A stretch of 64,000 nt of DNA from Hydractinia symbiolongicarpus (taxonomy: Eukaryota > Cnidaria > Hydrozoa > Anthoathecata > Hydractiniidae): NCBI RefSeq assembly GCF_029227915.1, contig NC_079888.1, positions 14,613,001-14,677,000 on the forward strand. Reading direction: 5' to 3'. The notes beneath the pieces were generated by a model, which did not search any database, was not told where the DNA came from, and worked only from the letters and a program-made list of their open reading frames with translations. Position 1 is the stretch's first letter; each line of letters starts with the position of its first letter. Shown piece after piece: positions 8,941 through 60,533 of this stretch. The position numbers and the translations under genes were made by a program.

Positions 8941-8982
8941 TTCAACGTGTAGGCAATAACATTATTACAGACGAGTATTCCG

Positions 8983-30260: not shown

Positions 30261-30266
30261 AAAGTT

Positions 30267-30598
30267 TTTTGTTTGTTTGTTTGTTTGTTTGTTTGTTTGT
30301 TTGTTTGTTTGTTTGTTTGTTTGTTTGTTTGTTTGTTTGTTTGTTTGTTTGTTTGTTTGTTTGTTTGTTTGTTTGTTTGTTTGTTTGTTTGTTTGTTTGT
30401 TTGTTTGTTTGTTTGTTTGTTTGTTTGTTTGTTTGTTTGTTTGTTTGTTTGTTTGTTTGTTTGTTTGTTTGTTTGTTTGTTTGTTTGTTTGTTTGTTTGT
30501 TTGTTTGTTTGTTTGTTTGTTTGTTTGTTTGTTTGTTTGTTTGTTTGTTTGTTTGTTTGTTTGTTTGTTTGTTTGTTTGTTTGTTTGTTTGTTTGTTT
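30267..30598 (+). repeat. (TTTG)n microsatellite, about 83 units
   Basis: 332 bases of an uninterrupted tetranucleotide array. Because 4 is not a multiple of 3, every plus-strand frame cycles through Cys-Leu-Phe-Val and the minus frame through Lys-Gln-Thr-Asn. The long open frames across it are therefore artefacts. Confidence 0.99.
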
Positions 30599-36900: not shown

Positions 36901-36904
36901 TTAA

Positions 36905-37646
36905 CCCTATTCGGTCCCCGGGGGGGGGCGGATTCCGCCCCCCCTGACGGTTTTTTTTTAATAACTCCTGATTGCTTTCTTATATGGCTATGATACTTAC
37001 TGAGTTTCAACATTTATCTATTAGACACCTGCATGCTAAATTTTTAGGTCCCATACCTTTCAGAGGCTTTGATATTGGCCATTACTCGAAACTACCCCTA
37101 AAATCTCTATGAAATCCTTATAATGGAGAAAATATAATAACTCCTGTTAGGATTATCCTTAGAACTTGAAACTTGCAACACAACTTTGTTTCATCAAGAA
37201 GGATCATTTCAATTAATTTTGACACGTGACTAATCCGATTTCCCGATTTTTTCGGATTTTACCCGAAAATCGGAAAAAACCGGATTTTCGGGTAATTTTT
37301 GGCAATTTTTTATTCGATCCATGTAAAAACCGGAAGATATGTTAAAAAAATTTTATTTACCTTTCAGAAACTTCAAACAGAATGTGAAAATTCGCTCTAG
37401 AACAAAAGTAATTATATTTTAAGCAGATAGTGGCATTTTTAACAATTTTCAAGCTTCCGATGACGTCACAGAAAATGTGCTCACGCAAGCAAAAATTTAT
37501 TGCCGCCATTTTGTTCCTTTTATAACGTACTATAAATGTGCCAAGTTTGATTCAATTTGAACAATCCTATGAAAAGTTATTGAGGGGGGGGGGGCGGAAT
37601 CCGCCCCCGGTCATAGTATGTTCGAAAAACCCCGGACCGAATAGGG
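36905..37646. mobile_element. Non-autonomous piggyBac-like element
   Basis: The ends are CCCTATTCGGTCC and its complement, almost the terminal sequence of the full piggyBac at 43,570 (CCCTATTTGTACCGGG). TTAA precedes the left end (36901-36904); the right flank reads TGAA, consistent with one mutation. Just inside each end lies a G/C hairpin sharing the core GGCGGAATCCGCC (left copy GGCGGATTCCGCC). There is no transposase, so mobilisation would need one in trans. Confidence 0.8.
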
Positions 37647-37650
37647 TGAA

Positions 37651-39440
37651 GAGCCTACAGAAAACGACTGATAATTTACTACAATTTTCTGTTTTGCATT
37701 TTGATAAGTACACATTTAAATTACTTAAAAAACATTAAGATAAGTTTGGTTGGCATTTACGTTAAGGAGAAATCTACAAAAAATCTAATCTGCCGGACGA
37801 ATTCGATAAGATTTTCATTCCAAAGATTTTAGATTTATAGTTCTATTAGCTATCGAAAAAAAGGAGTCGATGACGATGTTGATGATGGAGATGCAACTGG
37901 GGATGCAAGAGATATTGTGTTTTCTTTAACCGCCTTGGATTCCTCCTTCTTTCGTTTTCAATATTCCCTAGATCTAAATCTATCTTTCTTTAAACGTGCT
38001 TCGTACTTTTCCCTGTCAACATATTTCTCGTAATCTCTAGCAATTTTTTTCTTTCTTTTTCTTTTAGTTTGGATGTTTCTTTGTTTTTCTCGCGATATTT
38101 GGGACAGTAATCTTATTTGATTTAATGCCTGAATGTAGTCTAATCATTCTATAAGTTATAAACTGAAAAAAAAATCAAAACAAGTTTCATGTAAAAAAAG
38201 TTGAAAATTCATACATACTTGCTTTCTTCTCTCTGTTGTTGGCCCACAAATTCTTTACAAAACTTTTTTGACAAGCACAGAGAAATTCTTCACAGTTTCG
38301 AATGTTTCATTAATATTCAAATGTTGATGGTAGATAGCTTAACGATATTCATTGCACTGCAACGCCTTCAAAAGTACGAAAACAAAACAAATAGGAACCC
38401 ACGCCGGGTAGCTGTTTTGAATTTATATTTTTTTATTTAATTTATATTCGGGGTAACTGTTGTGAATTTATTTCTCCTGTTATATTATATTATTTCCTTA
38501 GTTGGCACTTCGAGTGATATTCTGTCGGACGTGTTTTCAACTGAGATAAGTGAAAGAAATGTATTACAAAAAAAAGTCTCATTTTACAGTTCTCATTTTA
38601 AAATTTGTAACTCAGACATGGATTTAGTTAATTCTGTCGGGCGGTTTTTTTTTCTTCCCGTGCATTTTTTTTACTAATAGTTATAAACAATGCTTTCTTT
38701 CATTTTGAAAAAGATGGATAATAATTAATAGTTTAATGTAATTTTAGAGTTGGGTGAAAGCTTTATCTTCTTAAAAAAACCTTCAAACTTTCAGCATCTG
38801 TCGGACGGACGAAAGGTTGTTTTGTCAAACTCTAAACAGCTTGATATTGCTAGAAAGTTAAGCAAAATGTTTCATATAATCTACCTGTCCCTTTAAAATA
38901 TCTTCAAAATCATTTAAAATTTCTAATTGACACCACCACAACTTATTATGCATTTTTAAGGAACGTCCGCCAGCAGATTAAAAGGGTTGTAAAAAATATT
39001 TAACGCATGAAATCGTAAAAAGAAAATTTGTTACTAGTTTTCAAGTGGTTTGGCAGTTAGATATGAATGTTAAACCCCAAAAAAAAAAAAAAAATATTTT
39101 CCAAAAATGTTACTTATTAAAAAACAGCCCCAGTAAAAAAAGAAGAACGAAAAAATTGATGGGTCATTTTCCGTATCATTTACCAAATGATCGTTTTACG
39201 TGTAAACAGCACTCGTTTCTAACTTTTGTGTTTATAATTATCCAAGCAATGCGTATGTAGCCGATAGCTCACATGCTTATATAAAAAAAAAAAAATGTTG
39301 TTCCCGAATAAAAAATGCACATATCAATTAGGCTATGTCATAAAGACGCGTCTGTCATACAATTTTTAACAATTTGGAGGTATACTCTATAACATGAAAA
39401 AGGGACATAATTAAAACATATTTTTACAAAATCCAACATT
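37651..39440. other. Unassigned stretch downstream of the minus-strand receptor paralogue
   Basis: No supported coding exon. Further 3' exons or the UTR of the minus-strand gene could lie here. Confidence 0.35.
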
Positions 39441-39447
39441 AATCATC

Positions 39448-40109
39448 CTATTCATCAATTGGTCCGTGAATAGTGGATAAATATGTTATTGTCTTGCATT
39501 TTTCAAACAAGGTGCTTACTTCGCCTTGTTTTTCACCGCTGACAGTTTCATTGATCGTAACCTCGCATTCAAAACTTGATTTTGCCAACTAAAAACAACT
39601 TTATTTAAATTCATTTGTTTAATTTGGACATAACTTTTTCTAAAATATCTGCTCCCACTTACGTTGATATCACTGGTACTTCGCTTAATCCTTCTAAAAA
39701 TTAAATAGAAAGAAACTTTAGCGACAAATCTCTAAATAATGCACTGAAACATAGATATTACGTAATGCATCCATTATAGGGTACGGTCGAGTAGCTAGTT
39801 ACCTCTTATCCTATTTTTTTACTTCATATATGAAAACTATAACAATTATAATTAAAATCATGTTGACGGCTCCTAAGATTCCACCAATTGTAACAACAGT
39901 TTTGTTATATTTGCATGAATTTGTGTCCGTTCTGGAAGTTGATGTTGCCAGCACAGAATTTAAACTCCCAGTTGCTTTATGTTTCACCTTTGTTGCTGCT
40001 GCTGTAGTAGTAGTTGTTGTTGATGATGATGATGGTGGTGGTGACGGTTGTAACAATGGTGTTTTTGTTGTTGTCGATTTAGGGACGAATGATGATAAAG
40101 TTAAAGGGT
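39448..40109 (-). pseudogene. Paralogue of the ITAM-tailed receptor: stalk, membrane span and tail exons
   Basis: Three minus-strand exons line up with exons 4-6 of the plus-strand gene at 43,120-60,533. Exon 40109-39803 starts with the same DPLTLSSF motif, passes through a Thr/Ser stalk to the membrane segment IGGILGAVNMILIIIVIVF, and ends at a donor in the same phase. Exon 39693-39663 (31 nt) and exon 39588-39448 follow, matching SFExE and SGExQ positions of the plus copy and reaching TAG at 39448. All junction phases agree. An in-frame TAG at 39811-39813 lies three codons before the end of the membrane exon, so the product would stop just inside the membrane unless spliced otherwise. The Tyr residues of the plus tail are mostly lost, and no ITAM is visible. 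The last exon reads through the position where the plus gene has a donor, so the true 3' end is uncertain. Signal and ectodomain exons were not found. Confidence 0.65.
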
Positions 40110-40735
40110 CTGAAGAAAAGCGAAAAACATAGGTACATCAGGCCAACATTGTTTAGAGGACTTTGCAAGAGATATTAACGTGTACTAAAAGTATCCTAGC
40201 TGGGGAAGGAGTAATCCAAGAAGATACAATTAAAGTAGTATAAAAATTTATGAGTTGGAAAGACTTGGACTTTCTCAATCGTTCTTTTTTTGCATCTATT
40301 AAATTAGTATAAAATTTGAGTTTATAATTAGATGTTTGTTTGATTTGACTTCAAAACATCATTTTAACCAAATGTAACTGAATCGAGTCCTTTAACATTT
40401 CTTATAGATATATTCAATGTTGAATCGGATAAATAATAAAATAAAGAAACTAAAAAAATGATGTGGTTGAAAGTATTAGATAACTACAAAACATTAGAGA
40501 ACTTATAAACTTTTATTTGAATTCCGTTTAGGGATGGGGCACAGAGACCCAGGGTCAACTTGATTAGTTCGTGATGTTCTTAATGCGAGAAGGATAGATA
40601 TCTTTGTCTGAACATCATATTGGATAATCACATTTATTTTATTAAATAACAACACAACGTTCTTACTCGATCTTTTTAATATTTCTGAAACGTGACGCGG
40701 ATTGCGTTATAACGCCGGTTTTGTGAAAGGTGTAT

Positions 40736-41990: not shown

Positions 41991-41993
41991 TAG

Positions 41994-42222
41994 GATGTTT
42001 ATTAAAATGGGAGGGATACACAGCTGATGTAACTTTAATAACACACCATGCTCAACAAAATAGAGTTTCGCATTACTAAACATGGCGTGAATCTTTGTCC
42101 AAAGATAAAAGACACATATGAAGCATCAAGTGTAAGAGTGTTAGCTCTGACTGATAAATGGGAAGTTGTTCCAACATTTTGGTCAAAATTTTTTACTATA
42201 TAGTAAACCTAATATCAAAAAG
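41994..42222 (+). pseudogene. Broken copy of the receptor ectodomain exon
   Basis: 229 nt closely matching exon 2 (54401-54630, 230 nt) of the receptor gene, including the acceptor TATAG/GATGTT and the donor GTAAGTTAG. A 2-bp deletion soon after the ITHH/ITHK position throws the frame and gives an early TAA; further changes lie near the 3' end. The next exons of the family are not found downstream. It is a partial duplicate in the same orientation as the intact gene, 1 kb upstream of that gene's first exon. Confidence 0.85.
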
Positions 42223-43119
42223 GTAAGTTAGCTTACTCTTATGCATACAAAAAAACTTATGTTCAATTAACAACATCCGGATTTATCGCATTTGTTTTGG
42301 CAGATATACAGTAAGGAGTTGTTATCGATTTGTATGATAAAAATTTCTACATCAATACAGTTTGTTTAATAAAGCTCAATACATGTGAATTTGTTATTTT
42401 TTATTTAATTAGTTTTATCGTATGTGGTAATTTTGAATATATATTACACATTATAACAATTCACATTTTATTTTTTATTGTTTTGGGTATTCCATGCTCC
42501 TCCAAAATTCTTTGATTTTATAACTCTATAATTTAAATGTTAGGATATTCCCGGTTATTTGAAACCATGGTTTGCCTTTGTACGTTGCGGAAATCTTCAA
42601 GCCCCAGGGCTTCTTGTTTATAATAATTTTTTGACTTGTGCCTACTAAAAAATGTTAGTTGATGACTTCATTGTGTTTAGAAATGACACACATTCCTAAA
42701 ATAGGTCATTTTACTAATTTAGCAATAAATTTAAATCTCTCAAGCATAACGGACGATTGTCTCAATCTTGGTTGGTTGTATTTATATATAACTTTTTCTT
42801 AATTACTATATGTCAAGCCAATACATCCAAACTAACTCTCTATTAAAAGCGTTTATTCATTTCATTAGAATGAATTAATAGTAATGGATTAATAATACTT
42901 TTATCTTCAAATTACAAACAAATTTGCTTAACAGAAGACATCGATACAGAAAGTTCAATTCAATAAACATTATATCACAAAAAAATATTAAAGGGAAAGA
43001 TCATTTGAGTCTGCAACCGCACCACATAAAAGAATTACGCTTTGAATTCACTGCAGATTGTCTTTGTATATTTGCCTTACTACGATTTATATATAATCAT
43101 TGGTTCATCAACTAGCAAA

Positions 43120-46100
43120 ATGATTTTTTACTTTCTTATGTTGTGTTTACATACTTGCCACTGCACAAGTATTACAAGAGGTGAGCGGATGGATGCTGTA
43201 ATGGGAGGATTTGCATGTAGACATACGTGTACTTGTCAAAGTCCCACTGCAACTTTCTTTCATTTATCGAAAGAAGAAAAGTGTATTGGTGCTAATGAAA
43301 CAGGTTAAATTACTTACACACCTCTCTTATTATGGCAGCACTTGTTATGAAAAAATTATAATACTCTTTACGAATAGAAAAAAACATCAAATACTTCTCG
43401 CGGCCACTTTCGCTTGATTGGCGAAAAATTCAGTGAGTAAATTTTCCCAGCCGGCACAAGACGTTTTAAAGACGCCTTTTCTGGAGCTTTTTTGCGCATG
43501 AAATATGCGCGCACCCGAAATACGTCTTTTAAACGTCTTTAAAACGCATGTGTCAGACGCGCATTTTAACCCTATTTGTACCGGGAGTGCGCTGAATGAG
43601 CGCACCCTTTCACATTTTTATGCGGCTTTTCATGAAAAATTAAGCGACCCGCATGAGCTTCGCAGACTTTTAATATTTTTTTAGGGCGGTTAAGACCGGC
43701 AAATTTTTTTTCTGAAAAATTTATGTTTTGCGGCCATTATGGGGCCAATGTCAAAAAAGGCGCAAAAGCGAAAAATGAAATATTTCGAATTGTGTTATAT
43801 TTTCAGTCTTATTGATGTTAATTAGATAAATAGGATAGATGGTATAGCAAAGAGGGCTTATATATAATAAAAAATATAATTATTGCGTTTGTGACATAAA
43901 TTACCCCTTTATATATTATTAGTCTAATAAAAAAATTACAAAATGGGACCGAAAAAGGCTAGAATTTCATCTGAGGAAGCCATTCAAAATATATTGAGAT
44001 TTATTGAAGAAGATAACGTAGACGAAGCTATGGATGAAGAACTTGATGATGAAGATGATTTGGAAGAATTGTGCGGTGAAATTGGTAATATATATAGCTA
44101 TATTATATATACATATATATAATCTCTCTGTCTAACTTCGCGTATATATATGGCGCATTGGTTGCGAGAAGCAAAATATGTTTCAAAATGTGTGATAATT
44201 TATTTTTAGTATTTTTGTTTGTCTCATAGATAAAGAAATAGTTGAAGAAGAGGATCATCAACATGATAACGATGACCGTGTAGGTGATGCTGACAATGAT
44301 GCGTCCGAAAGTGAAGAGGAAGCCGGAGCAAACCATTTGAGGAGACGTCGACTTACGAAATATCGCTTAGTAAACAGTATTGCTGCCGCTACAAATTTAG
44401 AAAATTATAACGTTTTTCCAATACCACCAGAATCAAAGTCTATCCAAAGCATTTTCAAAATAGATAATAAGAAGAAAAATGACATAATTCGTACTTTCCA
44501 GAATCAGCCACAAGCTGGAAATGTTGGTCGAAATAATCGTGCAAATGTTATTACTGGACGACAAGGCCCACAACCAAAAGCTTGTGAAACTGCATCACCC
44601 CGTTCTGCTTTTGAGCTCTACTTCACTCCTGAAATTGTGAATAACATTTTGTTGTGCACCAACAGAAAGATTAGACGCACTCTGTCCAAACTACCCGATA
44701 ATTTCTTGACGCAAAATAGTAGGTATTCGTACATGAAAGAAACCTCTGTTGAAGAAATTTATGCATTTATTGGATTGTACCTATATCGAGAACTATACAA
44801 ACTAAACTGTATATCTGCTCATAGATTATTCTCAAACCAATATGGTCCGCCAATATTCAGCGCCACTATGTCGAGAAATAGGGTTTTTTTTATACGTACA
44901 AACCTTTGTTTTGACGACGAGACAACAAGAGATGAAAGATGGAAACATGACCGTTTTGCGGCAATGCGTGAAGTTTTTGAATCTTTCAATTATGAATGCA
45001 TGTCATGCCTTGTACCGGGCGACTATCTATCACTTGATGAAACCCTGTATCCAATGAGGACACAGATAAGTTTCAAACAGTACAATCCCAACAAACCCGC
45101 CAAATACGGTTTATTACTGAAAGCCATAAATGCAGCACGATATCCGTATACATTCCTTGCAGCTCCATATAGCGGCAAACCACAGGGAGATCCAGGAATT
45201 TATTATGTACCAGGCACTGAGGAAATAGTAAAATACATGATAAAACAACTATCAAATGTTGTCTCGCTGGCCGGACGTAATATATCTTTCGACAGATTAT
45301 ATACATCAATCCCGCTTGCGCTTTGGTTGTATGAAAGGGATATCACTTGTGTTGGTACAATGCAGATCAACAGGAAAGGAATTCCAATTGAAATGAAAGA
45401 TTTCAAACAAAGAGAGCCACTGTCCAGTGAAGTGTATTGGCAAAAAGATGGGCCGCTGTCCTTATCTTCATATGTAGTGAAAACTTCAAACGGAAAGAAA
45501 AATGTACTCATGTTGTCAACACTAGAACCAATCCTAGGTACAACCAAGGATGATAATTGCCACAAATTGGGGTTATATAAACTATATGACTTTACAAAGG
45601 GGGGTACTGATATTGTGGATCAGAGGATGGGGTTTCACACGACGAAGACAAAGTCAAGAAAGTGGACGTTTGTTATGTTTTCTTACATGTTGGATACCGC
45701 TCGAGTAAATTCTTCGACGATATATTCACTGAATAAAGGTATTGATCCGCTACAACAAAAGTCTTTTGAATACGCCTTTCAATTAGTCATGGAATTGGTG
45801 AAACCAACCATACAAAAAAGAAGTCAAAATGGTATGTTGTCCATCACAAAACAAAAAATAAATCTTGTCTTGGGTAATGCGCAATGTAATCCGGAACCGC
45901 GTGCAGCTATTGGTCCTGCATTTGCAGAAACAAGGAAACGGTGTACTGTTTGTCAGGCTGAGAATGCAGGAGAAAATTATTCCCAAAAGAAAAAATCTAT
46001 TCCGTGTGTCAAATCACTTTGTCAATCATGTGGCAATACAACGTGTCAGGCCCATATGATACAAAAATGTATGTCGTGTTCAAAGAAATGAACGTTCTGG

Positions 46101-49100
46101 TTTCAGCTGATGATATGAACCTTACTGACATTATTTTACTTCTTTTTGTTTATTTTTGTCATGTTTTATACTAATAGCAGGGTTTTGGTGTAAAAAAACT
46201 AATTCATGTCAAAAAACCTTCTTTAGGGACATTTTTTTGAAAAATCCTTATTTTTCGCCCTTTTTTTTCAGCCGCTCATGTTGATTGGGGCAGTGAGAAT
46301 GTAATTTAGCTTGAAAACATCCAAAGTAGGTGTTTTTTGGTACAATATAGATACATAATGTTACTGTAAAAAAATCAGGTTCACCGCTTTTATGCGAAAG
46401 ATTTTCTTGGGGGTGCGCTCAATCAGCGCGCCCCTGGGATTTGAACGTCAAAAAAGCCCCGGTACGAATAGGGTTAAAGGCGTCATTAATGCGTCTTTTT
46501 CAGGCACGGTCTTTTTCGTTTGTGATAAAAGACGTCTTTAGGTGCATAATTAAGACGCGCATTTTAAAGACGCAAAAAAGATCGAAAAAAGACCGGTTTT
46601 TATTTCTGATATAATTGGTCTACTATTTCTCCGCGGGTAACATGTTTAATTACTTCTTTCATGTAAAAACTATAATGCCAATAAAAAAAATATATCTCAC
46701 AATAACTTGATTTTAAAAACTTGTATTGTATTAAAATAGCAGGGTAAATCTGTATTTATCATTTAAAAGAGTGATTAAAGAGTAGAAAACTTAATTATTA
46801 CCCCCGTCTGTACAATTTTAAATGTCTGAAGTGGCGGTAACTTTTAAACAAAACCAAGTCGAGAAAGGAAACCGGTTGGTTGCAGAAAGTAAGTTATAAT
46901 TGTTTTTGTTTTTATTTGCATTATTTATCAAATGAGTTCCGGCAATATGGTAGCCCGATATAGAGCTCGTGTTTTTTCATGAGCACCAAAAAAGTTATCT
47001 TTTTAGAAGCGAGTTTGGGGACTAAGAGCTATGGATCGTATGCAGTTAAGGTCATGTATATATATTTATTTTATTGTTAACTTTTTTTACTGTTAAAGCT
47101 AGTAGCTATGCTAGCTGCAACCCTGGAAAGATAGTGAAAAATATTTTTTTCCAGGGTTGTAGCTAGGTGTTTCTAGCCAGCTAGTGCAGCCATAAGTCCC
47201 ATAGAGCTAAGTGTTAACATTAAGCCTTTTACACCCAAAAGCCACCACACCACTCACACACAAAGCCTGTTGATTCTGCGTGACTTGTACAATTGAATTT
47301 TTAAACTAAACAAAGTATTTACATCACAAAAAGTACCTGTGTCTTGATAAAATTTCCAAATTAAGATTATTAGAAAGTCATACAAAATGGAGAGAAATAT
47401 TTGTGACATCTTGCAGCTATTTCTTAAGGCAAAATGACATATACTTTGCCGGTCACAGACACGTTTCTGTAACTTGACCTGAACTAAAAGCTGACGTTTC
47501 TTAAAAATTATTTAACTAAATATTTTATTAAGAACATTGATGAATAAATCTTAACATCTTAAATAAGTTTTGCAACTATAACTTGAGAGTGGATCTGTCT
47601 GTACTTAATGGAAATTGTCAAGCGAGTTTAAATTTTATCCACAGGCTAGCTATATTTTTAACTAACATTACATCAATTTTAGCTTAGCATTAAATTTATT
47701 TCAGAAATGGATAAGTCAAAGAGGCAGAATGAACGACGGAGGTTGCAGCAAAAAGTTGAGGAGTTTTTAAGGCAGGAGGATAGCGAAAGTAGTGATGACA
47801 TGTTAGATGATACATCAGATATTGAAAGTCAACCACAATTTGATAGCTCCCCAGACATGTCAATTGACATAAACGAAGAAGAAAGTTTCGCATCTTCCTT
47901 GTTTTCTTTTGAAGAGGATGTTGTAGAGCCAACTTTACAAGATAATCTTGCTAGCTGGGCCACTAAGTACCAATTAGGTAGAGATTCCCTTAATGACCTT
48001 CTATTCATTTTAAGAAACTCAGGACATGATCTTCCGAAAGACAGCCGAACTTTGCTCATAACCCATCGAACTGTACAAAGTGTTGTTTTTAATGGTACGA
48101 ACAGCTTCTGTTATTTAGGAATTAAAAGTTCATTAATTCAAGCTGTCACATTTATCAATGATCAAATCGATACACTTGAATTGCTGGTTAATATTGATGG
48201 AGTCCCATTGTGGAAGTCAACAAACTCTCAGTTCTGGCCAATTCTTGGTTCTGTTAAGGATACCAGTTATGTCTTCCCTATGCTTTGTTTTATGGGAACA
48301 CAAAACCTGCATCTGTTCGTGAATTTCTTTCTGACTTTATCAATGAAGTTGAAAACTTAACGCGTGATGGTGTAAATTTTGAAAATCAACATTTTACATT
48401 TGTTCTCAAAGCCATAATTTGTGATGCTCCAGCCAGATCATTTCTAAAGTGTACAATAGGTCACACTGGTTATTACTCTTGTGAACGATGTTGTGTTAAA
48501 GGTGTAAGGTTGGAACACAGAATTGTTTTTAATGATTTTAATGATGCTGACCTGCGTACCAACCACGATTTTTCTAGATTTATCTTTGACGGTACTCATC
48601 AAAAAGAACGATCACCCTTAGTAGATATTGGTTTTAATTGTGTTAATGATTTTCCCTTAGATTACATGCACCTGGTTTTACTTGGAGTTTTAAAGCATGT
48701 TCTTACTTTTTTATTGAAAGGGCCAAATCTCTGTCGTATTTCACACCAGCAATCAAATATTTTATCTGAAAGGTTAGTTAGCTACAATGAAAAAATGCCA
48801 TCTAATTTTAAACGCCAGGCAAGAGGATTACAAGATCTTTGTTATTGGAAAGCTACTGAATATCGTCATTTTTTGCTATACCTTGGTCCAATTTTACTTA
48901 AGGGTGTCATCGATGCAAAGGTTTACAAACATTTTCTTGCTTTGCACGTGTCCATGTCAATTTTGTTAAATGGTAGTGCTGTTTTAGATTCAGATCTTGC
49001 TCAGTATGCCAAAGATCTGTTGTCCTGGTTTGTTCGTAATGCTGCTTTTGTTTATGGAAAGTTGTTTAATGTATACAATGTTCATGCCTTAATTCATTTG

Positions 49101-52100
49101 GCTGATGATGTCATTCATCATAAATGTTCTTTAGAAGTCATTTCTGCATTCAAGTTCGAAAATTACATGCAAAGTTTGAAAAAAATGGTTCGAAATAGCA
49201 ACAATCCCATTGTCCAGGTGGTGAAACGTCTTGCTGAAAAGAAGTCTTCTGAAACATCTACTCAGTGCAATAAAATTTTCAAGGGAAATGGTAAAGACCT
49301 ATTTTTTCTCTCGAATGAAGGTTACGTTTGCGAGATTAAAAAATTTGTTGATGGTGATAAGTATCAGTGTATCATTTTTAAATCCAGCATGCTTGAACCT
49401 TTTTATGAAACACCAATCGATTCACGAATACTTGGGATCTACTACACTCGAGGTTTTAGTCATATAGGGAAAGTTTTGAAGATTTTAACACACACACAAG
49501 TTGAAAAGAAACTTTTAATGTTGCCTTATAAAGATGGTCGTGTATATTTTCCATTACTTCATGACATCCAGGGAAATAGATTTTAAATAGTTGTTATACC
49601 TTTTACAGTTATTAGCATTTTATTATATATATAGTACATGCAAATACTGTCTTAAATTAGAAAAATTGGTAGTAGTTAAGGTTCCAACATACATGGTTAG
49701 GCTGTTTTTAGCATAGCAGAACTCTGTATAATCCAATTTTCATCCTCTCTTTAATTTTTTATCTAGCACATGCGAAATATATAGCTTAAAGGGAACCCGA
49801 GGAATAAAATGATGTTGGACTTATATTTAGAGCTAAAAAAGTTGGTCAACAGGTCATTTTAAATTTTTTCAAAAAGCTCCTTTCGTTCTCAAGATATTCA
49901 CATTTAAAGAAATTTAATTATACTCCATAAATTATGATGTCATATTTCAGGAATAGCAAATTTGACATTTCCATAGTATGCTGCATTACATTTACTTGCT
50001 ATGTTTGCGAAAAACTGATACACAACATTAAAGAATTTCGGAAGCTCTTCTACAGTTTCTTTTTTCATAATCTCCTTTTTTTCTGGTCTTTTTTTTGTGC
50101 CCTAGTACTCGTTAGTCAAACATTTTTAAGGCGCAAAGAGGTTAGTTGATTTCTTCTTTACTTAGATTCAGCGTATTCGGAATATTGGTGGGTCCGACTA
50201 TAAGGACGCCGTCAAACAAACACTTAGCCGGTACGGATAGCTACTATTCACTGTGCAATTATGATTTTTGCTCTTTTACACCGATCGTCAATTGTCCGAA
50301 AATTGCCCCTGACTAAAAGGGCGGTGCCGGTCGCAAAAAAGCAAACCAGCGAGAATGAAATATTTAATATTTTTGTTATTGTTTTTCTGTTTGTTTATTC
50401 CGCTCCACAGGATTTGGAACTGTTAGTCTTTATTTATTTATCACGAGCATTTATACAGGATAGTCATTCAAAAACTACCGTAGTTTGTCTAATTTAACAT
50501 GCCCTCTTATTAACACGCATAGGCCATTTTTAGCAAAAATTGTAGCCTTATAAATTTTTAGCCTTTTTTAACGCGTGTTTAGTTTCGTTCCAGTTTCTAT
50601 TTTATTTTCCTTTAATTATTAACGCGTGAAAATAATTATTTTTATAATTAGAAAAACTACGGTATTTTAACTTGTAAGTATTCGAATATAATTAGCGATT
50701 CTAGACTCACATTATTTGGTTCTTAATCTATGGGTGAATTCAGACTGAGTGCTAAGCCTCAACGTTCTTTTAAACTAGGTTCTCATAAAAAGAAAAACGT
50801 GTAGTAACTAACTAATTTGAGCAAATACTAATGTTTAACTGATGTGAATAAAATTATTGTAAATTTGTTGATAATATAGAATTATTTATGATATTTATGA
50901 TATTAAAGAAAATATTACAAAAAGATAAAGTTATACAGTTTTACTGCATTTATAACCCCTCTAAGGACAAAGGTTGTTTGAACAGCTTTCTAGAATGACT
51001 TTATTTATGAGTTTACGTCTTATTTGCCACTAAAAAAGACGCACAAAAAAGACGCAAACATTTAAGACCAAAAAAGACGCACTTAAGACGCATTTAAAAA
51101 AACGTCTTTAAAAAGCATTACAAAGACGTCTTTAAGACTGCGAAAAAGACGTCTTTAAGACGCACAAAAAGACGCCATAATGACGCACAAAAAGACGTCG
51201 GAAAAGCGGACATTTATGACCTAGAAAAGACGCGTTTAAGACGCATTTAAAAGATGTCTTTAAAACGCATTTTGAAGACGTCTTAAAAACTTTAAAAAAA
51301 AGACGTCTTTACGACGCACGGAAAAGACGTCGTAAAGACGCATGAAAAAAGACGTCAAGAAATCGGACATTTAAGATCAAAATAAGACGCCAAAAAGACG
51401 CACGGAAATGCGTCTTAAAGACGTCTTAAAGACGTTTTTTTGCCGGCTGGGTTGCTATAAGCATACTTTATGTCCACATTCTTGTAGGGACAGACAGTTC
51501 ACTTCACCACTGTGTAGCCCAGATTTAGTAAACACTTTGAACCTACAAAAGTATAATAATATGGAATTTAAGTGCAAACAATCTGTCTTATTATTTTGTT
51601 CTTATAACTAACTTGTGCTCAGGTAACTTAATTATAAAATTGCAAGCAGCACAAAGCTGTTATAACTTATTAATTTTACTTTCAAATAAAGATGTTTAAT
51701 CTCCAAAATTGCCTTTACTACAAGTATAAAACAATCGTTTAATAAATAGATTTGCCTAAATAGCTTTAAAAGTGCCTTTTAAAATACATACTGAAGCTTG
51801 AAAAAACTTAAGTTACTAAAAAAGAATAACAACAGGGGAAGTATTTTCATGCACTTTTCAATTTATTCCTGTCCCTTTCCTCTCCTGAAAATCTTGTCAA
51901 CTCTGATGCGATTCAGTTATATACCACAAATCTTTTTTGAAACAAATGTGCACTTTAGTCTGTCGAAGTTGGCCAATTTGCTGATAGGGTAGACACAAAC
52001 AAATTGAGAGCAACAAAAACAGTGATACTCATTTTAACAACCCTAAACATAAAAGTACTTTGACAAAGCTAATCGAAGAAAGCTTAATTGACGCTTCTTG

Positions 52101-55100
52101 GGAAGTATTGAATGTTTACCTCGGGAGCGGGCGTAAACGAAACTGATTGAGTGGTATTGGCCAGGCTTATCCAGCTGATGACTGAATCCATCTTTAAATC
52201 ATAAACATTTATCTTACTAAGGAGGCCTTTAAAAGTTTAATTTCACAGCCTTTATTTATTTTAAGAAGATGAATTGAAAAGGTTGTAAACTTACCTATTA
52301 TATATACATTTGTGTCGTAAAAAATACAAAGATTAAGATGGGAAAAAACTCGTGAAAGAAAAAGTGAATAAAGAGATTAGTCCTACAAGTTTGGCAAATA
52401 TTTGATTTGATTAGAGAGTGGATCCGTATAATTAGGGCAGTAAGTAATTACAATTGTTCGTTTTTAATAGCTAAAATAATTTTAAATTTTTTTTCTGTTT
52501 GTGCAGAAGTGAAGAAGTGACGCAACTTGAATAACACTTAATATAATCTATCAGAAAACAGTAAATGAATACATGCTACCGAGATAAGTAAAATGCTACA
52601 TACTAAAACATTACTTACAGCCATTGGCTTTTTATCAGGTCATTAGACTACACCAATATAAGATTGCGGAGCAGGTACGGTTCAATGAGCCATAGTTGGA
52701 CCAGAATTATCCAAGCAAACCAAAAAACTGTCGTGCAGTAAAGCTTTTAAGTATTTTTAAATGATGCAGCAATACGGATAAAATGTAATTATACTGGCAA
52801 AATCATGCTCAAACCATTACAAAAAACTCCCAAATATGGTACAGCGATTATTGGGTACTTTACTTTTCGCACAGTTTTTTACATATTTCGCACATTTAAC
52901 TATGCTGTTCGTTAATTAAAGACTCGACAATACGTGTGAAGTTAGTTAAAAAGTCAAGGCATCTTTACTTTGTCTGTGTTTTAGCGCAGTAATAACATGA
53001 CCTCTAACTTCAAATGCATTCACTTTAAACTTAAAGAATTGAACAAAAATTAAATCCAGATGAAGTAATTTCACTTTTTGGTGATACCAAAAAGAATAAT
53101 TTGTAAAAGAACAACTTTAACTTTTTCTTTCCGGAATGTATTAGTGCATTAAATCAAAATTATTAATAGATATAAATGCGCGAAGTAGATTTGGGCCACA
53201 TTTATTCCTGTGTTATTAGCAATGTAATTATCAATCAACAAAATTTAGCTACCTAAACAGATATCAATATCTCTGAAGTCTTTATAATGAGAAATCAAAT
53301 TCCAAAAATTTACATGACCTAACAGAAAGAAGGTGGAAAAAATACATTAATGCAAAATATTCTTACAAACAGTAATGAATGCTAGTCCACACTTATAGGT
53401 AGTCGTTTTAAAATACAATGTTTTGTTACAAAAACAAACAAGCGTATTTCCGAATAAAACAGTCATCCAAAAATTACGTTTGGGCACATTTGAGTAGCAA
53501 ACGTTTTCAAGCAATTTAGTTTTATTTGGTCCTTCCGTGCCGATACGGAAATCCGATGCATCTATTACAGGATTGTTATGTATCTGTTAAATGGATATAA
53601 TTTTTTCGAAAATAGATCCAAAAGTGAAATGACTTTCATATACAATTACCAACCCGCAAAGATTTTTCTTTTCTTTTTTCATTCAATCGCATAATAGCAA
53701 ATTGAGACTTCTTGGAAGCGATAGAAAGGCTTTAAGTTTGTTTTTGTTTTTTTATGTGTAAAACAATGTTACTAACATTTATCCACCCTTTACTAAGTTA
53801 TACAGTAATAACAGGCAAAAGACGCAAGAATGCGTTGTAATCACTTGTACAGCAGTTAATCAGTCCTGCTGGAAGCAATTATTGTTCTCTTATGTCTCGT
53901 TAAAGCAATTCAAATTATATAGTAGAAAACCTTTTTTGGGTGTGATCCTTATGCAAATAAAAAATTTTTTTTACTAACGTAGGTATTAATTACTGCTAAC
54001 CGGCAAATATTGAAAATGTGTATATTTTTTAAACGAACGTATTCATACACAAACTTCATATGCTAAAAATAAATAAATAAATTAAAGACGTGTATAACGA
54101 AGGGTTAAGAACATATCACAGTGCGTTAAAGATACCGCATAAATATATAGCTAATGATTTAGCTAGCTATATATTTATTAAAGATGATACAATCAGAAAT
54201 CACATAACTATTATGTGGGTAATTGCCTACTCAAAACGCAATTACCTTTTTTTTCCGACTTCCCGGGGAAAAAGAGAAAAAGCTGCCTTGTTTTTTAAAC
54301 ATGTCGAACCTGGCCAATAATTTTGGATATCCAATTGCATTTTCTTGAACTAATGTTTGTGCGTTTTCTTAAGCTTGTATTACGACATATTCTATTGTAG
54401 GATGTTCGTTAAAAGTGGATGGATATACAGCTGATGTACCTTTAATAACACACAAAATGCTCAACAAAACAGAGTTTCGCATTACTAAAGATGGTGGGGA
54501 TCTTTGTCCAAATACGTTAGGTACACATGAAGCATCAAGTGCAAGAATGTTAGCGCTGACAGATTCTTGGGAAACTGTTCCAACATTTATGTCAAACTCA
54601 TTTTCATATAGTATACCTAATGTGAAAGAAGTAAGTTAGCTATTTGTAGTATATTGATAAGAAGACAAATATTCCTACATATCAAACTTGAATATCTTAA
54701 AGGATTTTTTGTAGTAATGTGTTTAGTTGGTTCGTAAATACTACGTTATCACTACTTTTACAATTTCAGATAAAAGTAACATTTCATACAATATGGTCTG
54801 GCTTGTTGATAAAACTTGAAGTCAAGTGTAAAGCAAGCAATGGAAACGAATACACACCACGTGGAAACTGCGTTCTATTCAAATATGAAGGTACAGCAAC
54901 GTGTAAGTAGAAATATAGTATCAACTAGCATTAATTATAAAATAATGTTGCTCTTTCTGTTCTTTCTACAAATAAGCAATGCTAAAATTTGATATTACCG
55001 GAAGGTAAAATCCTTGTTTTTTCTTTCTTTAACGATACCTAGCAATTTAACATTAAATATGCTATTTAAAGGCGTATTTAAATTAATAAATTTTTTTAGA

Positions 55101-58100
55101 AAATCACTGAAAATAATAATTAAAAAAAAAAAAAATAAGACGAAGCATTTCAAAGTTTGATTCCAAATTCAGTGTTTCTAGAGACTCTTTTTTTTTGCTG
55201 TTGATATCACATAAAGGCGGGATGGAGGCAACTTGAAAAGAAGGCAAAAACGCTTTGCATCTCGCATCGATAAGCCCGTCGAAATAACCCACTTAGGCAG
55301 AAGAACAATAGGAAAGAACCGTTAAGTAAAATTTGATAAAGTCGGCATGAACACGTAAATGCACATGCATGTTTGGAAATTTATTTACCCGTTGTTAGTT
55401 ATGCAGAAGTAGTAACACTGATCAAAATAGATGTATGTAATGTATAGAACATGTGCTTTGGACAAACGAGTAAGGAGATATAAAGGTTTAAGTGTTTTGC
55501 TGACGCCAAAAAACAACGCGCTGTTCCTTGTATCGAACTTCGTTAAATCTAAAGAATATTTGTAGTATTTATTATAACATATATAGAACATTAATATAAA
55601 GTAAAATAATGGCAGTCAAATAGTGATCACACTTTTTCAAAGGATGTAACGACAATGATGTAATATTTTTAACAGTGTCTTCATTTGGTAATGTAATAGT
55701 ATAAGATTAATTTAGAATAAATTAGAATAAGATTAATTTATTGCAATCTTTCGCTTTTACTAACTGCTGTTCCAAAATGTCAATGCGTTCAATATAAAAA
55801 AAATGTTTTCACCTAGCAGACGCATGATGTTTAGATGATTTTATACTTAATGTCACTTTTCGCACATTATTCAAAACACCGCAGTGATATCAATTCAGAT
55901 ATGTTGGGTATTCTTTATCAAAAAACATCTAACATATACAGTGACAAACCCCTGAGAAATAACCTAAAACTGCGACTAATTCAGTTTCTTGAGCATATAA
56001 CGTTCTTTAGCATCACCTGTTCAATACAATGAACTGTAACATTTTTAATTTGCAAGATATGTAGGCAAAAAAAACCTTGTCAAAATGGGCTAGGTAAACA
56101 GTATATATTTTATGTCTAGTTCTGTACGAGAATTGATTAATAAAATGAGTGTTATTATCTAATATGTTGATGTTTGCGGAAATAACACACACGACCTAAT
56201 TAAGTTGACATCAGCTTTTTGTGTCCATTTGTAGCGCCGGGTTTGTTGTCATAGTTCCTGAAATGAACTTAAATAAAATTTTGTAAGTTTTCTAACGTTT
56301 TGAAGTTCTCTATTACTTTTCACCGCAATTGTTTCCAGTTCCTTTATTTTACGATTTATCCATTTCAACAATGAGTACACCTATAAGAAATGTTTAAAGG
56401 CTCAGGAGGACGATTCAGTTTCGCCATTATCCCTAATGCAGTTTCGGCGTAAAATCAAACAGGAATCTAATTTACTTATTAGATACAAAAACGAGGAAAA
56501 CGTTTGAATTTTTATACCATTTTAAATGTATCTTGTTGGATTCTTTGAACACGATGACTATGCTTTATGCAGTCAAGAATCTTTTTGTCCCAGCTAATAT
56601 CTCTTTTAAATTCCTTTAAACACTATTTGCGCAAAGTATCTATGTTGTTTGTATGCTTTTTACAGATCCGTTAACTTTGTCATCATTCGACCCCAAATCC
56701 AAAACAACAAAAACACCAACAAAACCAGCAACAAAAGCAACAACAACAACAACAACAACAACAATACTAAAGCTACCAACAATACCAACGAAATCAACAA
56801 AAAAAATAACAACAACCACAACAAAGGCTTTAAATAACGTAACTGGGAGTTTAAGTTCTGTGCTGACAACATCCACAACTGCAACGACGGAAGCCAGGTG
56901 TAACACATTGACTTCTTGCGAAAGTAACAAAAAACTTGTCATAGCTGGTGTAACTTCAGGAGCCATTAATCTGATCTTGATTTTAATCGTCATAATTTAA
57001 ATATGCAAAGTAAAAAAGCTGAATCAAGCGTAAGTACTTGACCGTACTCCATAATAGATTTATTACTTAATGTCTATGTCCCAGTAAACATAAAGGCGTT
57101 TTAAAGACGACTTTTCTCGTCTCTAACTCGTCCGGACGTCTTCCGACTAAAAAAACGTCTCAAAGACGTCTTTATTTGGTCTCTGTAAGACCAGTAAAAT
57201 CTCCTTCGAAATAAACGTCTCAAAGACGTCTTTATTTGGACTCTGTAAAACCAGTAAAATTTCGTTCGAAAGAAACTCCTCTAAGACGTTCTTAATTGGT
57301 CTCTGTAAGACCAGTAAAATCTCGTTCGAAATAAACGCCTCAAAGACGTCTTTATTTGGTCTCTGTTAAACAAGTAAAATCTCGTACGAAATGAATGTCA
57401 TTATTACTTTTCATTTTAAAAATAATTTCACAACAAACAAATAACGTAGTTATTTGTTTGCCCATTCGCAATAATTGGCATAAACGTTTTTGATATTTCT
57501 GAATTTGTTAGAGTAGCCAAAAATTCGAATTAAATTTGTATAAAAACGGAAACATTTTACAATGAAAACAGCTTTCGAAAGATCACATAGAATAAACTTG
57601 ACGTTTACTTTTGAACGGAAAGGCATATTGTGCTCCATATTGTGTTCGAATTGACGAATGTTCGGATTATCGGAAGTTGAGAAAAAACAAGAATTTTGAT
57701 AAACTTTTAAAGGTTTTATGCTAATATAACTTTATTACAACTGTACTTATTACAACTTTTTTATAAAAATCTTTAACTTGGTTTGCTTGGCGGTGGGCAA
57801 GGCCTCCAAATTCCTTGTAAACTTCATTTTATTGGAAATGCTAATTTAATTGATGCAATGAAATTGAAACGTTTTTTTATTTTTTCATAAGATTTTATTT
57901 ATCGATACACAAAATTTCGAAATTGTTCGAATTAGCGAAGTGTTCGAATTAGCGGAGTTCGAATTAAGCAGCTCAAAACAAGACTTTATTAAATCAAACT
58001 CAAGGGACTTGGCAATTTGTTTGAAAGAACGGAAAGTTCGAATTAAGCGGCATTCGAATTAGCAGACGTCTACTGTAAGTATTTTTTTTACTTCACGCGA

Positions 58101-60533
58101 AAGATTATGCTACGACTTCTTTTAAGTTAGTTTTAAATCAAGGGAAGCTTTAAATGCTTAATTTTAGCTTCACTATCCCTTTCCCTTCAAGCGCACGTTA
58201 CACATGCTCTAAAGTTTTAGACCTATAAAGTTTGTTCTTGAGAAAAAACAGTAGCTACTTTAAGGTGGATTTTCACGAAGCGAATTGAACGGCGAATTCG
58301 ACGGCGAATTTTTTGGCGATTTCGCTTTTTTAATGTTCACGACAAAATAAATTAGACGCCGAATTCATTGTTTACATTGGTTAACCGCGTTCTCATTGGT
58401 CTAAAACTTGTAGCGAAACCTTTAACTGAGAAAAATTAGGAACTGTTTCTACTTTTCAGCGAAGCGAATATTTCGATGCAAAATCATAACAAACAAAACT
58501 GCGCATGCTCAGATACAATTTGCCGTCGAATTCGCCGTTCAATTCGCTTCCTTAAAGTTCCCCTTTATATATTGGTGTAATGACTGAAATGCATTTTATT
58601 AAAGGGTTGTGTGGATAAAACGTCAAAGAATAAACATATCATCCAACGTGCGCATTATTACAGACATATTTTACAAGCAGGGCTCAGACCGAAGTGTTAT
58701 TGATTGGCGTAAATATAATGACACTGTCGTTCAAGACAACGTTCAAAGATACTAACTGTTTGTTCATGGTCAACAATTTTGTAGTATTACACCGTATATT
58801 TTGTGTTATGTGCGATTTTTATAAGCAAAACAGCAGTTTAGCTTAATGCAGCTTAGGTTTTTCTGTTTTAAAGTTTTCTGTTTTTTAATTTTTTAGAACA
58901 AGAAAGGTTCCCGAAGTAATAATTTTGCCGTCGTTGTTGTTGCTTATGAAAAAGCTTATATGATATAATATTTTATTCTTAATAAACTGTTTATTTATAT
59001 AAATGATAGAAATACAAATTTTCTATTAAACACTTCATCATTGTTTTCCTAAGCCTTTTCTGTAAAACGTCTTTAAAACGTCTTTAACACATCTCAAAAA
59101 GACGTCTTTTTTACGTTTCTCGAAGACGTTTTTAGGCGTTGAGCTTTTAGACGGGTCAGAGACGTCTTAGAGACGTCTCATCTGGTCTTTAAAAGACGTT
59201 TTAAAGACGTGTTTAAGACGTTTTATGTTTACTGGGGCACAAGACATTCTGTCGATTAATTTTGATATTGTTTAGGCTATTATCAATATATCTGTTTTTG
59301 ATTTTTTAGAAAGATCAAGCAAATTACCAATGTTAAGGTAAGTGCGGGAAAACATTATAGAGATAAATTTACAACTTCTCTCTCCTTATTTTGTAAACTA
59401 TTATCTGTAATATAATATTAACGATTTTGTTTAGGTAACAGAACCAAGTTTTGAATATGAGTATCCCGAGGTTAAATTAAGTGAAATAGTCAACGGTGAA
59501 GAACAAGACAATGTAAGCGCGTTCTTTGACAGCTATTTTGAAGTGACAAAATAAAATTAGGGATTACATTAGTCATTCTATATACAATATGTGCTTCTTT
59601 TCAGTGCAGAATTATTCCTCTGCAATCATACCCAGTGACACCATAGATATGGCCTGCTTTAATAAATAGTTTATTTACCTTAACATGGAACTACGAAAAG
59701 TGATTTATCAAAAAAAATTGTCCGTTACTCATAACGCAATCAATGAATATACTATGATAATAATTGAATTTTGCAGAAATGCGTTTTCATGCGCACTTTG
59801 ATTATTTAAAGTCTACACAAATGTAAGCAGAAATCTTCCTCCTTTTCTTTTCATGCTGAATTCCCATAAAATGTAAAAAGTGATATCACCCATGCGTCGT
59901 TATTGCTAAGCTTAATCAAGTGTAAATTCTATTGACGTATAGCATTAGACTATTTATATAAACTATCGGGTGACAGAAGTACGAAACACTTGAAAAATAA
60001 CAAATGGAATAATTAGGAAGAAGAACAGTTTATGCGCAATACAGTCTTTTTAGACATAGACAACAAACAACAAATGGACAATCAATATGTTAACAAAACA
60101 ACCTTTTCCTATTCTTCAGCTCTTTTGTAAATTTTGCACAAATTCACACAGTAAAAAAACATATCAACTGAATTTGTAGTCGTAATTTTCATTGAAATAT
60201 AAATATTGGTAAGTTAACAAAAACAAAGTCCTGTTGTCGTCATAATATTTTGTTGTCAGCAGTTTAAGTTCCTTGAGCTTCAAAGGCTTTTAATGGCGGT
60301 TTAAGCACACGGGTGACCTTTACCCGACAACTTAATGTAATCTTCCAACATAACACCAGAATTCCACTTTTTTTATTTTATTTTAGAATAAGCAGGGCTG
60401 TCAAGATGTGCAAGACAACAAAAATTATGCGCTATTGGTATTTGACAGCAAAGAAAATGTTACCTCGAATTATACTCCCCTATCAAAAGTTAACAACGGA
60501 ATTCCTATGAATAGAACTATGAAAACACCATAA
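43120..60533 (+). CDS. Type I membrane receptor-like protein with Cys-rich ectodomain, Thr stalk and ITAM-type tail (seven exons)
   Basis: Exons: 43120-43303, 54401-54630, 54770-54890, 56666-57029, 59310-59337, 59435-59512 and 60387-60533. Phases run 1, 0, 1, 2, 0, 0 and every junction fits. The sum is 1,152 nt (384 codons), open except TAA at 56998-57000 (codon 290). Residues 1-15 or so form a signal peptide; 30-60 hold a C-x3-C-x-C ... C cluster. Exons 2-3 form an uncharacterised ectodomain with GCSLKVDG, WSGLLIKLEVKC and CVLFKYEG landmarks. Exon 4 is Thr/Lys-rich and ends in a membrane span. The last three exons are cytoplasmic. Exon 7 gives YALL (Tyr 349) and YTPL (Tyr 364) separated by 11 residues, within the ITAM consensus. 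I do not recognise the ectodomain. The join of exon 1 across an 11-kb intron rests on phase and Cys content only. Either the TAA makes a tail-less protein, or alternative splicing avoids it, or the gene is dying. Confidence 0.65.
43570..46473 (+). mobile_element. Apparently complete piggyBac element
   Basis: TTAA flanks both sides (43566-43569, 46474-46477). The termini CCCTATTTGTACCGGG and CCCTATTCGTACCGGG (complement at the right end) differ at one base. Each end has a subterminal hairpin, GTGCGCT ... AGCGCAC at 43587-43605 and a similar one at 46413-46434. The 2.9-kb body contains a full transposase. It is inserted in the left subterminal repeats of the CMC element, so it is the younger of the two. 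Confidence 0.95.
43943..46091 (+). CDS. piggyBac transposase, two exons, looks intact
   Basis: Cuts and pastes the element at TTAA. Exons 43943-44084 and 44230-46091 join in phase 1 across a 145-nt intron (GTAATA ... CTCATAG) to give 667 residues without a stop. The N-terminus is acidic (DEELDDEDDLEE and a second Asp/Glu block), as usual in the family. The catalytic acids are in place: Asp 317 in SLDETL, Asp 402 in ISFDRLYTS, and Asp 508 (with Asp 511) in GGTDIVDQRM. The C-terminus is a Cys-rich zinc finger (CTVC ... CQSCGNTTC ... CMSC) that binds the subterminal DNA in this family. Length is somewhat above the roughly 590 residues of the insect enzyme. Intact frame, termini and TTAA copies together suggest recent activity. 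Confidence 0.93.
47111..47166. repeat. 56-bp hairpin with the termini of the CTACAACCCTGG MITE
   Basis: CTAGCTGCAACCCTGGAAA and a near-exact complement separated by about 18 bases. The arms match the ends of the MITE at 40,736-40,959, so this is either a minimal derivative or a chance relic inside the CMC element. Confidence 0.7.
47707..49586 (+). pseudogene. CMC/EnSpm-type transposase with one 1-base frameshift
   Basis: The first part (47707 to about 48288) starts at ATG after a TTTCAG acceptor. It has an acidic leader and then the family block DGVPLWKSTNSQFWPILG. The second part (to 49586) continues one frame over as FYGNTKPASVREFLSDF, CDAPARSFLKC, HTGYYSCERC, DYMHLVLLGVLKH and the C-terminal HALIHLADD segment. 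The break lies in the short T run at 48287-48290, where one missing T restores the family reading PMLCFYGN. No other stop was seen over about 625 codons. Upstream exons may exist, given the acceptor just before the ATG. The family assignment (tnp2/CMC-type in animals) is by motif recall. Confidence 0.75.
50476..50664. mobile_element. 189-bp MITE with TACCGTAGTTT termini
   Basis: The left end TACCGTAGTTTGTCTAATT pairs with the right end AATTAGAAAAACTACGGTA. The interior carries ACGCGT motifs and no coding. It lies inside the CMC element. Confidence 0.65.
51000..51451. repeat. Right subterminal GACGTC-rich minisatellite of the CMC element
   Basis: Some 450 bases built from AAGACGC and GACGTCTTTAAGACG units with variable spacing, ending at the inverted terminal TGCCGGCTGGG. 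The matching left tract is at 43,460-43,565 and 46,478-46,600, split by the piggyBac. Confidence 0.85.
51452..54400. other. Rest of intron 1 of the receptor gene
   Basis: No exon recognised. A 14-bp perfect AT-rich inverted repeat lies at 54139-54152/54165-54178. A short piece of the dispersed TTGCGGAGC repeat is near 52,664. Confidence 0.45.
54401..54890 (+). CDS. Receptor ectodomain, exons 2 and 3
   Basis: Exon 2 (54401-54630, phase 1 to 0) and exon 3 (54770-54890, phase 0 to 1) are separated by a 139-nt intron with GTAAGTTAG donor and TTTCAG acceptor. Four Cys lie in the pair (GCSL, DLCP, VKCK, GNCV), plausibly two disulphides. The segment has alternating polar and hydrophobic residues typical of a beta-sheet fold, but it lacks the Cys/Trp spacing of a classical immunoglobulin domain. 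A broken copy of exon 2 lies at 41,994, showing local duplication. Confidence 0.7.
54891..56665. other. Intron 3 of the receptor gene
   Basis: About 1.8 kb. No coding or repeat feature with support; poly-A at 55,120-55,135. Confidence 0.5.
56666..57029 (+). CDS. Receptor stalk and membrane-span exon with premature TAA
   Basis: The exon begins after a TTTTTACAG acceptor and opens with DPLTLSSFDPK. Some 60 residues of Thr/Lys/Pro repeats (ACA-rich codons, 56,700-56,820) look like an O-glycosylated stalk. Two Cys (ARCNTLTSC) precede a 20-residue hydrophobic span (AGVTSGAINLILILIVI). TAA at 56998-57000 stands where the minus paralogue has TTC (Phe). The remaining codons run in frame to a strong GTAAGT donor at 57030. 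The Thr-rich part has a long shadow frame on the other strand that is not a gene. Confidence 0.75.
57640..58075. mobile_element. Fragment of a pogo/Tigger-like MITE
   Basis: The right end reads (complement) CAGTAGACGTCTGCTAATTC and is followed by repeated TTCGAATTAGCGG-type motifs at 57,920-58,060. Related TTCGAATTGACGAATGTTCG sits at about 57,640, probably the degraded other end. The family name is a guess from the terminal sequence. Confidence 0.4.
58264..58563. mobile_element. 300-bp MITE with long inverted repeats
   Basis: The terminal inverted repeats are about 45 bp and share GAAGCGAATTGAACGGCGAA and, next, TTCGACGGC. There is no coding. It is nested inside the 57,080-59,236 element. 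Confidence 0.85.
60387..60533 (+). CDS. Receptor cytoplasmic tail exon with ITAM-type motif
   Basis: The acceptor TTATTTTAG is followed by 48 codons and TAA at 60531. Tyr 349 (YALL) and Tyr 364 (YTPL) form YxxL-x11-YxxL, inside the YxxL/I-x(6-12)-YxxL/I definition. In animals such motifs are phosphorylated by Src-family kinases and recruit Syk-type kinases. Exon 6 adds FEYEYPEV with two more Tyr. Function is inferred from the motif alone. Confidence 0.7.
   Translation, partial: NKQGCQDVQDNKNYALLVFDSKENVTSNYTPLSKVNNGIPMNRTMKTP

Follow-up and report, generated by a model that had tools for sequence, protein, structure and literature searches.

Does a gene on contig 14 of the hydrozoan Hydractinia symbiolongicarpus encode a receptor with an ITAM-type tail, and to which family does it belong? 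The gene lies in a stretch of 64,000 nucleotides (contig 14, 14,613,001-14,677,000), which is referred to below as the window. In all probability contig 14 is chromosome 14; for this species a published assembly of 483 Mb has 15 chromosomes (PMC10411563).

The initial annotation proposed seven exons with GT..AG boundaries, joined into a single frame of 1,152 nt. The exon structure was borne out, with AG acceptors and GT donors at the internal exons and with the phases of the annotated gene LOC130625457 (Table 1). The signal-peptide-like start, Cys-rich ectodomain, Thr-rich stalk and hydrophobic span are all present in the DNA, and the EYEYPEV sequence ascribed to the tail was found in exon 6. 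The single frame, however, did not hold. The joined exons measure 1,164 nt and contain an in-frame TAA at codon 294; probably an ACA repeat had been miscounted by 12 nt and the TAA overlooked. The stop is located directly 3′ of the transmembrane core and upstream of the ITAM-like exons. Exon 7 of the window DNA does carry the motif of the proposed tail, in an ITAM-like form, and that tail is intact in LOC130625457, but the view that the window copy itself encodes it is not supported.

Table 1. Coordinates of the window copy, of related fragments and of elements in its introns, with exon lengths compared with those of LOC130625457.
Feature	Position in window	Strand	Length (nt)	Length in LOC130625457 (nt)	Remarks
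Exon 1	43120-43303	+	184	187	signal-peptide-like start (by eye), N-terminal Cys-rich CRHTCTC...KC, GT donor
Exon 2	54401-54630	+	230	230	ectodomain; Cys in 'GC' and 'LC'
Exon 3	54770-54902	+	133	133	end of ectodomain, WSGLLIKLEVKC...NCVLFKYEGTAT; most conserved block of the family
Exon 4	56666-57029	+	364	355	Thr-rich stalk and transmembrane span, then GTAAGT donor
Weak alternative donor	56988-56990	+			exon end 56988, then GTCATA; would bypass the stop
In-frame TAA, codon 294	56998-57000	+			LOC130625457 reads TTA (Leu) there
Exon 5	59310-59337	+	28	28	juxtamembrane, 3′ of the stop; homologous 28-nt exon in LOC130625457
Exon 6	59435-59512	+	78	78	EYEYPEV part of tail, 3′ of the stop; 65% identity to LOC130625457 exon 6
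Exon 7	60387-60533	+	147	147	ITAM-like YALL-x11-YTPL and natural stop, 3′ of the TAA; 64% identity to LOC130625457 exon 7
Decayed paralogue	36345-40137	-			pieces of exons 4, 6 and 7
Its stalk/transmembrane exon	39814-40107	-			TAG before donor
Its exon 6 piece	39523-39564	-			
Its exon 7 piece	36345-36410	-			frameshift after YTQL
Decayed exon 2 copy	41993-42233	+			frameshift
Transposase in intron 1	43943-46091	+			DDE_Tnp_1_7, E 7e-48; 630-aa frame 44199-46091; ATG 43943 by eye
60-bp tandem array	57149-57399	.			4.2 copies; intron 4

LOC130625457 (protein P0003, uncharacterised) is the intact counterpart. It lies ~117 kb from the window copy, on the minus strand of contig 14 (14,509,841-14,539,228), and when spliced at the homologous sites it gives the database protein of 385 aa letter for letter, in an open frame. 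The two genes agree in their seven exons and in the exon phases, and at exons 2-6 the first six bases of the donors are identical. Where the two can be aligned before the stop their identity is 67%, and in the tail exons it is 64-65%; they differ in that LOC130625457 is open to its end whereas the window copy has its TAA. The initial annotation had named one way in which it could fail, namely that exon 7 belonged to an unrelated gene. This was checked and ruled out by the structure of LOC130625457: since that gene joins the same seven exons, in the same phases, to the same tail, exon 7 belongs to this type of gene. Six core cysteines, the exon-3 block, the exon number, the phases and the splice sites place the window copy in the LOC130625457-type family; a complete open frame through the tail is what it lacks.

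Could the stop be bypassed by splicing? Among combinations of candidate splice sites, 16 yield a full open frame, the longest being 1,119 nt (the weak donor after 56988 joined to exon 5 from 59314), which would leave the gene intact. All 16, however, require that donor, which cuts the last portion of the membrane span out of the product. GTCATA also fits the donor consensus poorly, and LOC130625457 uses the GTAAGT site equivalent to position 57030. An intact gene spliced in this way is therefore very improbable.

A second alternative is that the stop is not damage at all. The product could be a working tailless protein, ending in the membrane, GPI-anchored or shed, that serves as a decoy or ligand for its tailed relatives. 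The frame stays open through exons 1-3 and the greater part of exon 4, and the predicted product ends in the hydrophobic AINLILILIVII after a short polar spacer, an arrangement that resembles a GPI signal. An annotated isoform of another family member, LOC130625153, likewise lacks the membrane core. The ectodomain also shows low dN/dS by the Nei-Gojobori count, in which three intact paralogues, P3, P1 and P2 (P0003, P0001 and P0002), were taken in and P0004 was left out. The values for the window copy against these three are 0.43, 0.30 and 0.39, and those among the three intact pairs are 0.38, 0.45 and 0.26. Mature exon 1 has changed most quickly (0.43-0.84), and dN is lowest in exon 3; every comparison made gave a dN/dS below 1, with no sign of positive selection. 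Against a working tailless protein, the exons that follow the stop still show apparent constraint. Exons 6-7 give a dN/dS of 0.44, with a Fisher p of ~0.03 for synonymous versus replacement proportions on rounded counts. As the tail exons would have been constrained for much of their history, the stop, judged from these substitutions, looks recent, and so does the truncation. Nor did the database show a protein of the window copy itself among 26 candidates of 161-513 aa, a range that a gene model of another size could escape. We regard a functional tailless protein as rather unlikely. The explanation that we prefer, and consider probable as a whole, is that the window copy is a paralogue whose tail was lost by a recent Leu-to-stop change, leaving a disabled or tailless member.

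Three further copies near the window copy bear lesions: the minus-strand paralogue, the exon 2 copy at 41993 and a copy at contig 14:14,679,423 with a stop in exon 2. The introns hold other elements, among them a transposase in intron 1 which we take to be of the piggyBac type, a pair of long ORFs at 47683-49586 that overlap in different frames (no Pfam match) and look like a frameshifted transposon gene, and arrays rich in AAGACGTC-like units at 51032-51435, 57149-57399 and 59059-59225. Elsewhere in the window there are reverse transcriptases (RVT_1) at 5642-7189 (minus strand) and 8953-11205 (plus strand), the latter broken by a stop where two frames join, and a run of 84 GTTT copies (99% matches) at 30264-30598.

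The paralogous fragments had been taken as signs of a local multigene family. The decayed copies in the window and the genome searches agree with this, and the family is larger than was supposed. The searches covered 480.9 Mb in 76 contigs, and because only the best candidates were scored, the counts are lower bounds and an absence carries little weight. Exon 2, searched as DNA against the whole genome, gave 10 matches including itself. The LOC130625457 ectodomain, used as query, matched at least 31 exons, spread over contigs 14, 2 and 7, and two more divergent loci used in the same way, L033 and L035, gave at least 38 and at least 37 matches, respectively. Counted by exon 3, there are at least 22 loci, 21 on contig 14 and one on contig 2, and 19 of the 22 fall inside 668 kb of contig 14. 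This count includes a weak match at 14,313,961 (E 0.006-0.016) and leaves out a match at 8.52 Mb (E 0.155), as well as two additional copies of exon 3 that lie no more than 310 bases from one already counted. Pieces of the family outside contig 14 occur at contig 2:35055740-35066996 and contig 7:32107054-32114980 (L032), and the contig 7 pieces are closely similar to part of those on contig 2.

Two subfamilies can be distinguished. The first, by exon 3, has at least six loci on contig 14 (the one at 14,721,857 with stops) and one on contig 2. The second and divergent one occupies 14053891-14314101 and 17389704-17394575 of contig 14 and has at least 15 exon-3 loci on that contig, 13 at 14.05-14.31 Mb and two at 17.39 Mb. 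Its gene anatomy is known from L033 and L035, the other loci being represented by exon matches. Both have a Cys-bearing ectodomain, a Thr stalk and a tail with repeated (E/D)YxVVNK. L035 reads as a complete gene, with a signal-peptide-like start, a two-Cys exon 1, exons 2-3, a long Thr stalk, a membrane span and a tail. L033, reached through the match at 14,063,433, has exons 2 and 3, a stalk/membrane exon and a 195-aa tail exon, with a weak candidate for exon 1 (E 0.018).

The ectodomain exons of the window copy find homologues at E 8e-49 to 3e-90, and the ectodomain is 51-77% identical to those of the H. symbiolongicarpus proteins P0001-P0004; by these sequence comparisons the homology exceeds chance. 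Exon 1 reaches 58-67% identity with its counterparts in P0001-P0003 and 39% with that in P0004. When seven members from both subfamilies and from Hydra were aligned, the weak exon 1 candidate of L033 included, six Cys, G-x-L-x-K and C-V-x-x-K-x-E-G were invariant. The Hydra member, a Hydra vulgaris protein called 'mucin-5AC isoform X1' (P0005), was the one distant relative recovered by a profile search (E 3e-5, 8,000 candidates scored). It shares the core cysteines, GLL(I/L)KL, C-V-x-x-K-x-E-G, a Thr stalk, a membrane span and a Tyr-bearing tail with the family, but its identity is 22-25% and its tail is a different one with no ITAM-like pair.

That this ectodomain lies outside known families, as the initial annotation supposed, agrees with the searches of Pfam and of PDB sequences, which gave no convincing match. 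On whole proteins, Pfam returned only matches below its cut-offs, ETRAMP (8e-5, the best), CEND1 (0.0011), RIFIN and Amnionless, nearly all of them on the stalk, membrane or tail parts. On the seven ectodomains it gave DUF5300 (E 9e-4) in one of seven and DUF7574 (E 0.13) in one of seven, cut-offs for these not being shown. The best PDB sequence match had an E of ~2. Structure prediction reached a mean pLDDT of 35 for P0003 (4 sequences) and 32 for P0001 (5 sequences), which is too poor for use.

The paralogues differ in their tails: core cysteines and a Thr-rich stalk are common to them, yet at least three different Tyr-bearing tails follow. The first is the ITAM-like pair, YALL-x11-YTPL in the window DNA and YAPL-x11-YTTL in LOC130625457. 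When either tail is shuffled, the pattern YxxL/I-x(6-12)-YxxL/I turns up in 0.8% of cases, and since the two tails belong to recent paralogues they are not independent evidence. A classical ITAM has a spacer of 6-8 residues and an acidic residue at -3; here the spacer is 11 and Asn stands at -3, so the classical form is not present. The tail of P0003, compared with the protein database, found only P0003 itself among 189 scored candidates of 212-674 aa sharing 5-residue words.

The second tail occurs in LOC130625151, LOC130625153 and P0004, uncharacterised members of the same cluster. They have the ectodomain, stalk and membrane exons in the same order as the window copy but differ from it in a long tail with 9-11 Tyr, YxxV/I/M and YYN sites and no ITAM-like pair. 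Between LOC130625151 and P0004, 9 of 11 Tyr in this tail are kept, against 62 of 151 other residues (p 0.011). Isoform X2 of LOC130625153 (P0002; gene at contig 14:14488976-14493458), the one mentioned above, is annotated without the membrane core, yet in the DNA of that gene a membrane exon is present, as is a long-tail exon with an open frame; together these suggest soluble and membrane forms. The third tail is that of the second subfamily. L035 carries EYTVVNK and EYAVVNK, and similar tails occur at three other positions, L033 included. By the same ITAM rule none was found in the second-subfamily tails tested, YATL-x13-YADL of L033 falling just outside it.

What could such proteins do? The predicted product of an intact member would consist of a signal peptide, an ectodomain of ~160 residues in which six cysteines form the core set (the subfamily of the window copy has eight), a Thr-rich and probably O-glycosylated stalk, a membrane span and a tail that is not the same in all members. 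Most likely the ectodomain would bind a surface ligand, and tail tyrosines, once phosphorylated, would recruit SH2 proteins. The candidate SH2 sites are the ITAM-like pair in LOC130625457, the YxxV/I/M and YYN sites in LOC130625151, LOC130625153 and P0004, and (E/D)YxVVNK in the second subfamily. An immune or recognition role may be inferred. It is quite possible, though we hold it at less than even, that the family instead consists of ordinary mucin-like adhesion or epithelial surface proteins, tandemly expanded and not part of any recognition system. The Thr-rich stalks would fit this, as would the name given to the Hydra relative by its source, whereas the conservation of tail tyrosines above other residues, the retention of one ectodomain with differing tails, and duplication and decay in clusters speak against it. 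Tentatively, and at less than even odds, we propose that chromosome 14 may hold a second, undescribed recognition-receptor complex, unlinked to the Alr complex, with paired activating and modulating receptors for colony or microbe recognition. That complex would comprise 21 loci or more, of which 19 form a 0.67-Mb cluster, with a hydrozoan six-cysteine ectodomain and tails of the ITAM-like, multi-YYN and (E/D)YxVVNK kinds.

The genes that work alongside Alr1 and Alr2 are, to our knowledge, only partly known, and so are their signalling partners. LOC130625457, LOC130625151, LOC130625153 and the genes at 14.05-14.31 Mb are of interest as candidates outside the known complex, and they would show a cnidarian joining immunoreceptor-type tails to a hydrozoan ectodomain that fits no recognised family. 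A search for the LOC identifiers in the texts of open-licence papers found none that names these loci; on that evidence the receptor-like family, with its 22 or more loci and its differing Tyr tails, is undescribed. The signalling setting of such tails is described in part. According to a review, candidate allorecognition genes of Hydractinia bear ITAM and ITIM motifs and the genome encodes matching signalling proteins (PMC12065747). Among invertebrates, Syk/Zap70 homologues are reported only where CARD-CC and Bcl10 are also present, and the animals listed with Bcl10 include cnidarians (PMC5978004).

Among the known systems close to this family is the Alr family, whose members are also clustered type I proteins with tyrosine motifs reported in the tail (PMC12065747, PMC11067881). 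Could the present genes simply belong to this immunoglobulin-type family? The organism is the same, the tail is ITAM-like, and in a Foldseek search with the pLDDT-35 model of P0003 the top match was the V-set domain of CRIg (E 5e-3). That model is poor, however, and its matches also included CopC and other proteins, with no E value at or below 0.001. No Ig family appears among the Pfam matches, and contig 3, which from its numbering would be chromosome 3, had no ectodomain match among the candidates scored. The Alr complex is reported on chromosome 3, with three Alr homologues lying apart from it, on chromosomes 5 and 6 and near the terminus of chromosome 3 (PMC11876637), and Alr is described as Ig superfamily, whereas the present family lies elsewhere and has no Ig domain detected. 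Because its members are on contigs 14, 2 and 7, the family is outside the Alr complex if contig numbers are chromosome numbers. Membership of the Alr family is accordingly improbable, and the ectodomain is likely to differ from that of Alr, taking Alr by its description.

One ectodomain type combined with several signalling tails would resemble the paired-receptor families. In mammals, paired receptors are encoded in tandem and include members with activating and members with inhibitory tails. These receptors, and fester/FcoR of Botryllus, differ from the present family in having Ig or Sushi ectodomains and tested functions. The likeness lies in the plan rather than in membership: fester/FcoR, too, are arranged in tandem and have tails of both the activating and the inhibitory kind (PMC12065747).
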